Part shown: positions 37,900-53,853 of the stretch, in pieces
Numbering within the stretch: position 1 is the first letter of the stretch
Layout of the letters: each line of letters starts with the position of its first letter
DNA from: Synechococcus sp. AG-670-F04
GTDB taxonomy: Bacteria > Cyanobacteriota > Cyanobacteriia > PCC-6307 > Cyanobiaceae
Reading direction: 5' to 3'
DNA length: 64,000 bases
NCBI GenBank assembly: GCA_003211515.1
Contig: QCSN01000005.1
Location: 1-64,000, forward strand
Position numbers and translations under genes: made by a program
The notes under the pieces: generated by a model
Seen by the model: only the letters and a program-made list of their open reading frames with translations
The model's database searches: none
What the model was told of the DNA's origin: nothing

Positions 37900-38241
37900 T
37901 CATGAAACAGGACTCAAGCCTGCATAATAACCACCTTCGCGGAAATTATAACGTTCGACCTTATCCTCTTTGCTACACGTAGTCTGTGAATAATGAAGAA
38001 GAGTTGTATATCCTTCAGGGACAAGTTTTGGACATAAGCGGCCAATATCATTTGCATAGGGACAGAAGTACACGCCAGCCCAACGGTTGAGGAAACGGCC
38101 TTGAATTTCTTCCGAAAAATCAAAACCATGCAGTTTTGCGAGTCGTAGAATTTCTTCGGGCTGTGCTTCTGCGAATAAACTTCTGAAGCTTGTGTCCTCC
38201 TCCAGAACGCCAATGAAGCGGATGAATTCGGCTCTTGACAT
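37900..38241 (-). CDS. Nif11-domain protein with Cys-containing C-terminal extension
   Basis: From the Met at 38241, residues 1-48 match the Nif11 pattern (MSRAEFIRFIGVLEEDTSFRSLF, PEEILRLAKLHGFDFSEE). The next 65 residues are an extension with three Cys (YFCPYAND, RLCPKLVP, TTCSKEDK) and no double-Gly leader cleavage site. Nif11 domains are found in peptide-precursor leaders and in free-standing small proteins; the latter fits here. It has 113 residues. It lies between cpeZ and mpeU. Confidence 0.7.
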   Translation of the reverse strand: MSRAEFIRFIGVLEEDTSFRSLFAEAQPEEILRLAKLHGFDFSEEIQGRFLNRWAGVYFCPYANDIGRLCPKLVPEGYTTLLHYSQTTCSKEDKVERYNFREGGYYAGLSPVS

Positions 38242-38842
38242 CAATGTAGTTAGATCTATCAATATCCTATCAATCAACCATCGTGATTGATCCACTAATC
38301 GTCTTATTTTTTATCAGAGCGTCTTGTCGTTTTGTGTTGATGCCGTGTCAGCGGGGGAAGAGCAAGGTTAAGTATTTTTGACTAATTGTTCCGCTGGCTT
38401 TTCCTTGACTTGATGAAGCTTTTGCGAGGTTTGATTCTATGGATTGATTACACTTCATATCTTCTAGGAAAAATATTTTTTGTGTTTTAATAGTTTTTGG
38501 CAGTCGGCGAATTTAAGTTAGCCGCACTAAAACTGAACTGCTCTCAGGCTGTTCAGTCTCTCCAGTCAGTGAAGAGTGTATGGCTTAGTACGTGTATTCT
38601 TCGCCATGAGAAGCTTAGGTATTGTTGTTCTTCGTCAGGTCTTTCTCGCTTGATTTGAGTTGATGCTTGATGGAGCATTAATGGCTTGGCTCGGTTTTTG
38701 AACTGCGAGTTTGTCTTGTGATTGTTAATCTGGTTATTGTGTCCATGTCATATGCAAAAGCATTTGAATTTTACTGATTTTTTGATGCAGTCTCTACTTG
38801 CTTAGGGGTTGGTGTTTTTGTACATCTTTTTTGTGGTTGGCT
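38242..38842. other. AT-rich 600-base stretch without a gene
   Basis: Only very short frames are present on either strand. It is the region upstream of the minus-strand Nif11-like gene and downstream of mpeU. T-rich tracts are common. It may be remnant DNA or carry the Nif11 gene promoter; no structure was identified with confidence. Confidence 0.45.
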
Positions 38843-50240: not shown

Positions 50241-50954
50241 CTATGAGTTGCTGGCTGGTGTTCTCAGCGATTCCAGGCTGTGTCTGGTGGTGCTGCGGGT
50301 GAGTGGGTTCCAGCAATCCAATTCTGTGATTGGTCGAGTAAGCAAAGACGACAGTTGATCCTCCAGGCCAACGCAAAGCGAGAAATCAGCGCCCTTGATC
50401 GATTGCACCGAATCGAGGGCGGCGTCGTGGAGATCTGCCCCTCGTAGATCAGCCATGTCGAGTTCGCTTGTTCCGAAGCGCGCCCCGCGGCACATGGCGC
50501 CGCGTAAGACGGCTGATCGCATGTCTGAACCAGCCAGAGACACTCCATCCAGTCGTGCGCCACTTAAATCTGTACCGCTGAGATAAGCGCCCATCAGGAC
50601 TGCGCCACGCAGATCGATTCCGCGTAGGTCGGCGTTGTTTAAAAATGCGCCATTGAGCTTGGCACCTGGTCCGATGGCGCCACTGGTCCTCAAATCAAAG
50701 TCATCAGGAGCTTTTGTCTGGGTGTCGTAAATCGCTAGGCGAAGATCAGCCTCTTGGAGCTGGCATTGCCTCAGATCACTGCCGCGTAGATCAACCCGAC
50801 AGAGTTTGGCTTGACGTAGATCAAGGCTTCCCAGAACCTCACCACTCCAGTTGGCACCTCGGGCATCGATCGGTGCTGCTTCAGAGATCTGGCTTGGCAG
50901 GAGGGCTTCCGGAGCAGACCAATTGCCCAAATTCAAGGATCCGGAGCTCGCCAT
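50241..50954 (-). CDS. Pentapeptide-repeat protein
   Basis: A 237-residue protein with about 20 A(D/N)LXX-type repeats (LDLRQAKLCRVDLRGSDLR, NADLRGIDLRGAVL, ADLRGADLHDAALD), forming a quadrilateral beta-helix. Its position between linker genes and cpcG is typical of the rod region, and it starts 7 bases after the cpcG stop, but its role is not known. Confidence 0.85.
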   Translation of the reverse strand: MASSGSLNLGNWSAPEALLPSQISEAAPIDARGANWSGEVLGSLDLRQAKLCRVDLRGSDLRQCQLQEADLRLAIYDTQTKAPDDFDLRTSGAIGPGAKLNGAFLNNADLRGIDLRGAVLMGAYLSGTDLSGARLDGVSLAGSDMRSAVLRGAMCRGARFGTSELDMADLRGADLHDAALDSVQSIKGADFSLCVGLEDQLSSLLTRPITELDCWNPLTRSTTRHSLESLRTPASNS

Positions 50955-50961
50955 TAACGCT

Positions 50962-51720
50962 TTACGTGCCCAACATCAACACAGCGATCGTAAGGATGAC
51001 GCGCACGATCTCAAAACCGCCGATCGCAAAGACACCAAGGAATAAATAGAGGCTCCAACGGGGAGGCCGTTCGTTCGACCATGCAGTCGATGCTTGCAGC
51101 ACGCTTGTTTGCGTCATGTCCCTCACGCAACCCCTTTGAATTAGGGCATTGCGCCAGTCCGCTCCGTAGCGGGGAAAACGTTGATAGATGGGCATTTCGC
51201 CGATGTCACGTCCAGGAACGACTCTTCCCCTTTGAACAGGAGGGAGGTCATAGCCGAAGTTGGCCATGTATTCGTCGGAATTGAGCAACGCATCAATAAA
51301 GGTGTTGAAGCCTTTTTCTCCGATCACAATCGACCAGGCCAGGCGTTCAGCCTCTCCGTGCACTGGGCGACCCAGAACACGCCCCACGACCTGATCAACC
51401 ATCCGGTAATTGGAGCTGCACTGGTAGTACCCCTGTTGGAAGCGTTCAGAAAGCAGCAGACCGCGTATAAAGTCACGCATGGTGATGTTGCCACTCCTCA
51501 GCTGGGATTCGAGAAATGAATCCCGATCGCACTGCATGGCGTGAAAGAAGATCTGCCGGTATGCCTGTTCGATCATTTCGTCGATATCAGCCCTGTAAGT
51601 CGAATCAGCGGAACTAATCGAGCCTGTGAACTGAATGCGAATGGTATCCACGTCGCCTGCAAGGTTGCTAACCCGGTTGTTCTGACTGGTAAGTGGATAC
51701 GTCTGTAGAGGGATCGCCAT
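50962..51720 (-). CDS. cpcG2: Rod-core linker CpcG with C-terminal membrane helix (CpcL-like)
   Basis: A 252-residue linker: a CpcG rod-core domain (IEQAYRQIFFHAMQCDRD, VVGRVLGRPVHGEAERL, NFGYDLPPVQRG) at ~45-190 and a C-terminal hydrophobic helix (WSLYLFLGVFAIGGFEIVRVI). A helix like this defines CpcL (CpcG2) of other cyanobacteria, which anchors rod-type phycobilisomes to membranes and photosystem I. No second cpcG is in the window. It is followed closely by the pentapeptide-repeat gene. Confidence 0.88.
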   Translation of the reverse strand: MAIPLQTYPLTSQNNRVSNLAGDVDTIRIQFTGSISSADSTYRADIDEMIEQAYRQIFFHAMQCDRDSFLESQLRSGNITMRDFIRGLLLSERFQQGYYQCSSNYRMVDQVVGRVLGRPVHGEAERLAWSIVIGEKGFNTFIDALLNSDEYMANFGYDLPPVQRGRVVPGRDIGEMPIYQRFPRYGADWRNALIQRGCVRDMTQTSVLQASTAWSNERPPRWSLYLFLGVFAIGGFEIVRVILTIAVLMLGT

Positions 51721-51791: not shown

Positions 51792-52385
51792 TCAGCTCTT
51801 AACCGCAGAATTGTTGAGGTTGTCCAGCAGGTGGTCGAAACAGGCACGAACCAAGGCTTGTTCACTGGAGGATGGAGTGGTGGCAATGCAGAGCTCCTGC
51901 AACGTCTGCAAGGCAATCCGCATTGCCTTGATCGGAACGTCCATTCGGATGTAAAGCTCCCGCAAGGCCACCATCCCCTCAAAATCTGTGAACTGACTCT
52001 GCCCAGCTGCGATCGCGTAGAGCACAACCCTCAGAAAATTCCAGCAATCCCGCCAGCAGGCGTCAGCGCGATCTTGTGGATGCAGCTCCCCGCCTGGTTG
52101 GCAGAGATCCGGGAACTGACGGTTCAGTTCTGCGCGTGCTTGCGCAACGAGGGAATCAGCCTTTCTTTGAAGCTCAAGCGGCAGCCCAATCCCGATGCCT
52201 GACGCACGGCAAATCATTCTGAGTTCCTCAGCTGTCAGAGGACGTTTTGCTTGATCTGCCTGTTGGATGAGGTTGCGTGTCTGGTTTGGCAGATCGGCCT
52301 GGTCGCCGAGTCCACACACTCTCGAGAGCGCGATCAATTGGTTGAGATCGAGTTGGTTGAGATCGAGTGCGTCAACCGAATTCAT
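51792..52385 (-). CDS. Divergent phycobiliprotein-like protein
   Basis: The 197-residue product (start 52385 by overlap with the upstream gene) has a globin-type phycobiliprotein domain at about residues 45-190. The bilin-site segment RADACWRDCWNFLRVVLYAIAAG aligns with [22 protein letters not shown] of beta chains: the Cys-82-equivalent, Arg and Asp are kept. ALRELYIRMDVP matches [13 protein letters not shown] 40-residue N-terminal extension is extra. It is neither CpcA/B, CpeA/B, MpeA/B nor an obvious Apc protein. Its ATG overlaps the stop of 52382-52873 (ATGA). Confidence 0.75.
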   Translation of the reverse strand: MNSVDALDLNQLDLNQLIALSRVCGLGDQADLPNQTRNLIQQADQAKRPLTAEELRMICRASGIGIGLPLELQRKADSLVAQARAELNRQFPDLCQPGGELHPQDRADACWRDCWNFLRVVLYAIAAGQSQFTDFEGMVALRELYIRMDVPIKAMRIALQTLQELCIATTPSSSEQALVRACFDHLLDNLNNSAVKS

Positions 52386-52873
52386 TGACAGGCCACAGGT
52401 GACGCGGTCAACCATCCATGTCTTTCAAGATAAAAAGCCCAGATCACTCCATCCCCGAGGCCAAAACAGTGCTCTCTGGCTGCTGCAGCCAATGCTTGCG
52501 GGACCTTCAGTTGTTGGAGGAGATGCTCCACATTCGCCTGACCTGTGACCTCGACAGCGCGAATTGCTGAACCCACGACCCAGGTCAATGACGTGTCATG
52601 CAACGGGCCATCACTTCTCTCGCAAGCCAGCAGCAGAGTGCAAGGGGACTCTTGGCGGTCGAGGGTGTCTTGCCAAAGCTCGATATTGTCTGGCTTCAAG
52701 TCGATTCTGAATTGCCCTTCGTCCAAGGGCATGCATAGCTCACCGCTGCTCCCGGCACGGGTCATCAGCGACTGAATTCTTGGATCCTTGAGTCGATCCA
52801 TAGGGTGATGCCGTTGAAACGCAATGTACGTCCGCTTTCCAGCTGAAAAATCTGTAACCAGACAACTGTTCAC
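52382..52873 (-). CDS. Unknown protein coupled to the phycobiliprotein-like gene
   Basis: A 163-residue protein not recognised as an S-, T- or E/F-type lyase. It shows a beta-rich middle (FRIDLKPDNIELWQD, TLLLACERSD, TWVVGSAIRAVEVTG) and a helical end (ALAAAAREHCFGLGDGVIWAFYLER). Its stop overlaps the start of the downstream phycobiliprotein-like gene, so the two are probably translated together and may work together. Confidence 0.7.
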   Translation of the reverse strand: MNSCLVTDFSAGKRTYIAFQRHHPMDRLKDPRIQSLMTRAGSSGELCMPLDEGQFRIDLKPDNIELWQDTLDRQESPCTLLLACERSDGPLHDTSLTWVVGSAIRAVEVTGQANVEHLLQQLKVPQALAAAAREHCFGLGDGVIWAFYLERHGWLTASPVACQ

Positions 52874-53013: not shown

Positions 53014-53658
53014 TCAATCGCATTTTGAATGGTGAGATTTTCTCTTTAACAATCCGGTCATTGTCGCCAAGGCAAACATGGCAAGTAGGGCAATACCCAG
53101 CATTAAACCCGCTCCCTGGGTTACCCCAGCACCAACAGCAACGATGATCGAGTCGCTGATCAAAACACTGATTAACAGAGCAGGCGCAAAGATCCTCCAA
53201 TGGGTACGGCTGATGCCAATGGCGTAACTCAGAAAGTCAAAGAGGCCGGTCATTAATAATCCTGTCATCAGGAAAAAATTCCCCTCCAGCTGGTTTTGAC
53301 TGAAACCATCGATCCGACGCATCGCAGATTGACCGACGAGGCGACTCACGGGCTCACGACCCCACTTCCGAGCAATCAAAAATGCTCCGCTGCAGAACAG
53401 AAGATCAGACAGGACAATCGTTGTGTATCCGGTTTTAAAACCAAGCAGTGATCCTGCGAGAAGCGAATAGATCGAACTAGGTAAGGCTGGCAGGATGATG
53501 CTGACTCCGCGGAGTAAAAAGAGCCCAAACGGAGCCCAAAATCCCATCTGTTTGACGACTTCCTGAAGCGGCTGTATATATTTATGCAAGAAGAAGCAGA
53601 TGAGCACAAAGGCAACAACTGCCACAATTATTTTTAACCACTTTCCGTAGCCCGGCAT
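53014..53658 (-). CDS. TVP38/TMEM64 (DedA-like) membrane protein
   Basis: A 214-residue multi-helix membrane protein. The SNARE-associated/DedA-like signature is FLLRGVSIILPALPSSIYSLLAGSLLGF at ~45-75, followed by hydrophobic helices and a basic tail. The ATG at 53658 is used; a TTG two codons upstream is the other choice. Proteins of this family are found beside phycobilisome genes in several Synechococcus, without a known role. Confidence 0.8.
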   Translation of the reverse strand: MPGYGKWLKIIVAVVAFVLICFFLHKYIQPLQEVVKQMGFWAPFGLFLLRGVSIILPALPSSIYSLLAGSLLGFKTGYTTIVLSDLLFCSGAFLIARKWGREPVSRLVGQSAMRRIDGFSQNQLEGNFFLMTGLLMTGLFDFLSYAIGISRTHWRIFAPALLISVLISDSIIVAVGAGVTQGAGLMLGIALLAMFALATMTGLLKRKSHHSKCD

Positions 53659-53853
53659 TGACAAATTTTGAATTTTGCTCGAATAGTTTAGATCAGTGTG
53701 GCGTCGAGAATGCGATTCTGTGACATGTCACATAGAGCGGTTGTCTCAGCAGGTCTGACCGTGGTGACAGGACTGCAATCCCTTTGCTGTGGAAAATTTT
53801 CCCAGGACAGATAGCATTGGTCAAAATGTTCTGAAAAGGTCAGATTTTTGAAC

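Follow-up and report, generated by a model that had tools for sequence, protein, structure and literature searches.

The picocyanobacterial aplA-unk4 gene pair and the association of aplA with phycoerythrin across cyanobacteria

AplA of Fremyella diplosiphon is reportedly an allophycocyanin-like protein with a bound chromophore, in which the bilin-binding residues are kept and the N-terminus is about 28 residues longer than in allophycocyanin. It is also said to be absent from phycobilisomes. The protein analyzed here resembles this description in its likeness to allophycocyanin, in the extension and in the kept bilin-binding residues. The same gene has been described in marine Synechococcus, where aplA and unk4 were named in 2007 within the gene order unk3-unk4-aplA-cpcGII-unk5, unk3 encoding a membrane protein and unk5 a pentapeptide-repeat protein (Six et al. 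2007, PMC2246261). In that study aplA was tied to the PEII strains of marine Synechococcus, whereas we find it tied to phycoerythrin generally, across cyanobacteria. Two further groups of proteins are close enough to be compared: the allophycocyanin alpha and alpha-B chains, ApcA and ApcD, and the HEAT-repeat proteins NblB, CpcE/F and CpeY/Z.

In the window, by which we mean the whole analyzed stretch of 64,000 nucleotides, the gene order is identical to that of marine Synechococcus. All five genes lie on the (-) strand. The upstream neighbour unk3 (53014-53664) encodes a VTT-domain membrane protein (PF09335, 3.7e-10) and is followed by unk4 (52382-52801) and aplA (51792-52385). Next downstream of aplA are the rod-core linker gene cpcGII (50962-51720; PF00427, 4.4e-36; CpcG models, 6.6e-47) and the pentapeptide-repeat gene unk5 (50241-50954; PF00805, 6.2e-25), the latter in the position given by Six et al. 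2007 (PMC2246261). The order unk4-aplA-cpcGII-unk5 of the rod region is also found in other named genomes, among them WH7803 (L153) and RCC307 (L127). Since the same order is shared by the window, WH7803 and RCC307, and since unk4 adjoins aplA in 37 of the 38 loci recovered by aplA, the pair in the window is, judged from sequence and gene order, the aplA-unk4 pair of marine Synechococcus. Both its identity and the pairing were thus already known. The gene had originally been taken for an orphan. This is ruled out, because orthologues occur in many picocyanobacteria, RCC307 and WH7803 included, and AplA was described in 2004 and 2007. Among IMG/VR cyanophage sequences, no copy of aplA or unk4 was confirmed.

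Some features of the surroundings may be recorded here. Likely orthologues of unk5, with 45-52% identity, are present in the phycoerythrin clusters of many other families, where they are often divergent from cpeS-pebA-pebB. A Nif11-like leader peptide protein is encoded at 37900-38295, within the phycoerythrin region of the window. The assembly of the source genome (G000) is 68% complete and has only nine PF00502 genes; the ones that were identified include neither apcA nor apcB, and the C1 copy falls with ApcD in the tree.

The aplA gene starts at the ATG at 52385 and its open reading frame encodes 197 residues. The product matched PF00502 over the whole profile (E 1.6e-32), and an AlphaFold model was obtained with a mean pLDDT of 92. 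Comparison of this model with the phycobiliprotein core gave a Z of 15.7 and 2.1 Å over 129 residues; profile and predicted model both agree with the globin-like helical core and two N-terminal helices of the phycobiliprotein superfamily. The original prediction had expected such a core. The full-length superposition by Foldseek was looser (rmsd about 8 Å). The N-terminal helices of AplA may therefore sit differently, or this may be an artefact of the prediction. Compared with allophycocyanin alpha, the product has an N-terminal extension of 32 residues (52290-52385, (-) strand), which contains a predicted helix at residues 14-20. An extra N-terminus had been correctly noticed, although its length was overestimated at about 40 residues. 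Across 43 Apl proteins the extension before ApcA residue 1 is 23-66 residues long, with a median of 28.

The bilin attachment site was analyzed by comparison of the 43 Apl proteins with 38 antenna subunits. Its codons, for Cys110-Trp111-Arg112-Asp113, are located at 52047-52058 on the (-) strand. In ApcA, the aligned counterparts of Cys110, Arg112 and Asp113 are Cys81, Arg83 and Asp84. The Cys with Arg and Asp two and three residues on, as had been noted beforehand, is kept in all 43 Apl proteins as well as in all 38 antenna subunits; the Trp is invariant among the Apl proteins only. In the numbering of ApcA, Cys81, Arg83, Asp84, Arg90 and Tyr94 are present in 43 of 43 Apl proteins and Asp12 in 38. 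The Asp/Arg pair at the subunit interface is also largely kept (the D44 equivalent in 38/43, R119 in 43/43). In contrast, Apl has not kept Gly99, Gly111, Arg36, Glu114 and Asp154, positions at which the antenna subunits show little or no variation.

The highest profile and PDB scores of the product were to allophycocyanins, and its best PDB sequence matches were allophycocyanin alpha-type chains (7.8e-14). AplA shares with ApcA and ApcD the core of the fold and the Cys-x-Arg-Asp motif, but differs from them in its N-terminal extension, in the loss of several antenna-invariant residues and in its separate clade. It fell far under the cut-offs of all NCBIfam antenna-subunit models (best 57.7 bits against 270). 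In an unrooted tree of 81 sequences, with Apl rows from the own family (Cyanobiaceae) and many other cyanobacterial families, all 43 Apl proteins fell into a single clade (branch support 100/100); a branch of length 1.73 lies between it and the rows of ApcA/B/D/F, CpcA/B, CpeA/B and MpeA/B. AplA thus lies inside no clade of a named rod or core subunit, in agreement with what had been anticipated, and a divergent copy of such a subunit is ruled out by the profile cut-offs and the tree.

The upstream gene had been assigned to 52382-52873. Its start is most likely the ATG at 52801, giving a protein of 139 residues, and not the GTG at 52873, which would give 163 residues, because the relatives begin at the former position. 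The stop of unk4 and the start of aplA overlap by ATGA at 52382-52385, as originally reported, and a 4-nt NTGA overlap is found in 19 of 24 loci. The predicted model of Unk4 (pLDDT 92) is alpha/beta. The upstream gene of the window has no match in Pfam, and a Pfam search with 22 Unk4 members found no family of note. In the PDB, no fold was matched by the model at a useful score (Foldseek best E 0.15; VIA best Z 3.5), and a profile search of the PDB returned nothing in support of a known lyase or fold; for viral models the best E was 0.19. In particular, Pfam, Foldseek and VIA-align gave no match to HEAT-repeat (E/F) or lipocalin (S/T) lyases. The earlier statement that the upstream gene is not a recognised lyase is consistent with these searches. 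Unk4 may yet be a lyase. A known lyase or other known fold is unsupported for Unk4, which does not in itself prove a new fold.

The distribution of unk4 was analyzed next to that of aplA. Among 390 genomes of the class, unk4 is limited to Cyanobiaceae. In a sample of 201 genomes of this family, 46 carried both genes, 22 carried unk4 alone and 10 carried aplA alone. The genomes with unk4 alone include small Prochlorococcus-like ones with CpeB, some of them with a broken unk4, and also G081, which has unk4 and phycoerythrin without aplA. The same combination, unk4 and phycoerythrin present with aplA absent, is known from WH7805 (Six et al. 2007, PMC2246261). Broken copies of unk4 were seen in the Prochlorococcus-like genomes G029 and G058 (L062-L065), and also in G020 and G055. 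CpeB is present in 65 of the 68 genomes with unk4. Since 22 of these 68 genomes are without aplA, unk4 would not be the dedicated partner of AplA that had been suggested; it follows phycoerythrin. The coupling of aplA and unk4 is real but local to Cyanobiaceae.

To relate aplA to phycoerythrin, an Apl profile and a CpeB model, the latter as the phycoerythrin marker, were run over the same 390 genomes. Outside the own family, aplA was present in 73 of 82 genomes with CpeB and in only 12 of the 163 listed genomes without CpeB, 151 of which had no aplA (Fisher p 6e-39). When genomes with a listed family were stratified by family, the Mantel-Haenszel odds ratio was 110. The link therefore holds within families as well. 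Genomes holding both genes belong to 19 families, and in 32 of 70 pairs the two are within 20 kb of each other. Within the own family, CpeB is present in 53 of 56 genomes with aplA. Among the 12 exceptions are several genomes in fragmented assemblies, with aplA beside pebA, cpeS and phycoerythrin linkers (L194-L196), and several of the nine phycoerythrin genomes without aplA are incomplete or reduced. The nine genomes, together with the few that have aplA and lack phycoerythrin, indicate that aplA is neither strictly needed for phycoerythrin nor exclusive to it. The gene is also absent from the Prochlorococcus-like genomes in which CpeB and unk4 are retained, which suggests that it goes with phycobilisomes and not with phycoerythrin alone. 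This analysis shows that aplA is found almost only where phycoerythrin is made, across cyanobacteria. In a literature search outside which most subscription journals fell, we found passing mentions of aplA and no published statement of this link. To the extent of that search, the general association with phycoerythrin and the lineage-swapped neighbours of aplA are new.

These neighbours were examined in 40 loci outside the unk4 lineage (L158-L197). In most of them aplA lies among pebA, pebB, cpeS, cpeT, cpeBA, cpeYZ, cpeF-like and phycoerythrin linker genes. In L181 it shares a 4-nt overlap with pebB, and in L180 one of the same length with a cpeF-like gene. In 21 of the 40 loci a gene for an NblB-like HEAT-repeat protein of the bilin-lyase clan is no more than 400 bp away from aplA, and an ankyrin-repeat gene lies directly 3' of aplA in six. 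Unk4 differs from NblB, CpcE/F and CpeY/Z in that it is predicted to be alpha/beta, not HEAT, and adjoins aplA in Cyanobiaceae only. A small protein with the motif EVIAELEQYRxRL, about 75-110 residues long, is encoded 5' of the cpeF-like or aplA genes in several of 16 loci (e.g. L180:4830-5114); it has no convincing match in Pfam or NCBIfam.

Across picocyanobacteria, the identity of aplA to the copy in the window is 34-55%, whereas that of the neighbouring phycoerythrin linkers is mostly 70-88%; no other gene of the neighbourhood evolves as fast as aplA. For aplA, close pairs gave dN/dS values of 0.15-0.83, and for unk4 values of 0.07-0.31, both from small counts. By these estimates aplA and unk4 are under purifying selection and both are maintained, the constraint on aplA being looser than that on antenna genes.

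AplA belongs to the Apl family, has a predicted phycobiliprotein fold and an intact bilin site, and is very tightly tied, in the genomes of about 20 cyanobacterial families, to the genes for phycoerythrin and for the synthesis of phycoerythrobilin. The original prediction of a candidate bilin-binding phycobiliprotein that is none of the named rod or core subunits is supported, and the gene has a genomic tie to phycoerythrin rods. We consider it rather probable that AplA is a non-antenna allophycocyanin-like protein which carries a bilin covalently on Cys110 and serves phycoerythrin-containing phycobilisomes. Because the bilin contacts are intact, a chromophore would be attached to Cys110 in vivo, and holo-AplA would act beside the antenna in these phycobilisomes. 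Unk4 would then help the phycoerythrin system as a factor specific to its lineage, its translation in picocyanobacteria being coupled to that of AplA; in other lineages an NblB-like HEAT-repeat, ankyrin-repeat, pebB or cpeF-like gene stands beside aplA in its place. That AplA is more specifically a bilin-loaded factor for making, checking or tuning phycoerythrin rods has, in our estimate, a little less than an even chance. The fast divergence of aplA speaks against it, since this is unusual for an essential assembly factor, and the co-location of aplA with phycoerythrin genes does not show function. The broader proposal, a general accessory biliprotein for assembly or sensing in phycoerythrin-containing phycobilisomes, with partners swapped between lineages (Unk4; NblB-like HEAT or ankyrin proteins), is possible but we regard it as rather doubtful. 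The loss of aplA with phycobilisomes, and not with phycoerythrin, in the Prochlorococcus-like genomes argues against a requirement for it in making or attaching bilins per se.

There are other possible interpretations. AplA may be a free biliprotein that acts as a light sensor, the bilin reporting light colour or intensity and the partner (Unk4, HEAT or ankyrin protein) signalling to the expression or assembly of phycoerythrin. According to Six et al. 2007 (PMC2246261), Montgomery et al. 2004 proposed that AplA is one of a class of photosensors that are not part of the phycobilisome, and the swapped neighbours of aplA are of kinds that make protein-protein interactions. AplA, however, has no output domain, a regulator regularly adjoining aplA was not found in the loci compared, and aplA occurs in many lineages of differing light ecology; we think a sensor rather unlikely. 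A minor structural subunit or cap, placed in phycoerythrin rods or at a CpcGII-type rod-core junction, would explain the kept inter-subunit Asp/Arg pair, the position of aplA next to cpcGII and phycoerythrin linkers, and its loss along with phycobilisomes. The long Apl branch and the loss of several Gly, Arg and Asp positions that are near-invariant in the antenna subunits make it doubtful that AplA is a regular part of the antenna, and the F. diplosiphon protein is, as mentioned, reportedly not in phycobilisomes. We consider such a subunit improbable. The least probable explanation, by a small step further, is the originally suggested dedicated two-component pair for bilin assembly or storage in which Unk4 would be a new lyase or chaperone for AplA. 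The 4-nt overlap and the adjacency of unk4 in nearly all aplA loci could be read in this way, but unk4 occurs without aplA in 22 genomes, Prochlorococcus-like ones and G081 among them, and aplA stands without unk4 in every other family sampled as well as in 10 Cyanobiaceae genomes.

The question of what AplA does dates from 2004. With the gene named as aplA, a pair of genes found repeatedly in the rod regions of picocyanobacteria that contain phycoerythrin is accounted for. AplA would seem to be a bilin-binding globin apparently freed by evolution from the packing of the antenna. If aplA accompanies phycoerythrin in almost all lineages, its function could be looked for, in genetically tractable strains, in how phycoerythrin rods are made or tuned and not in general light sensing.
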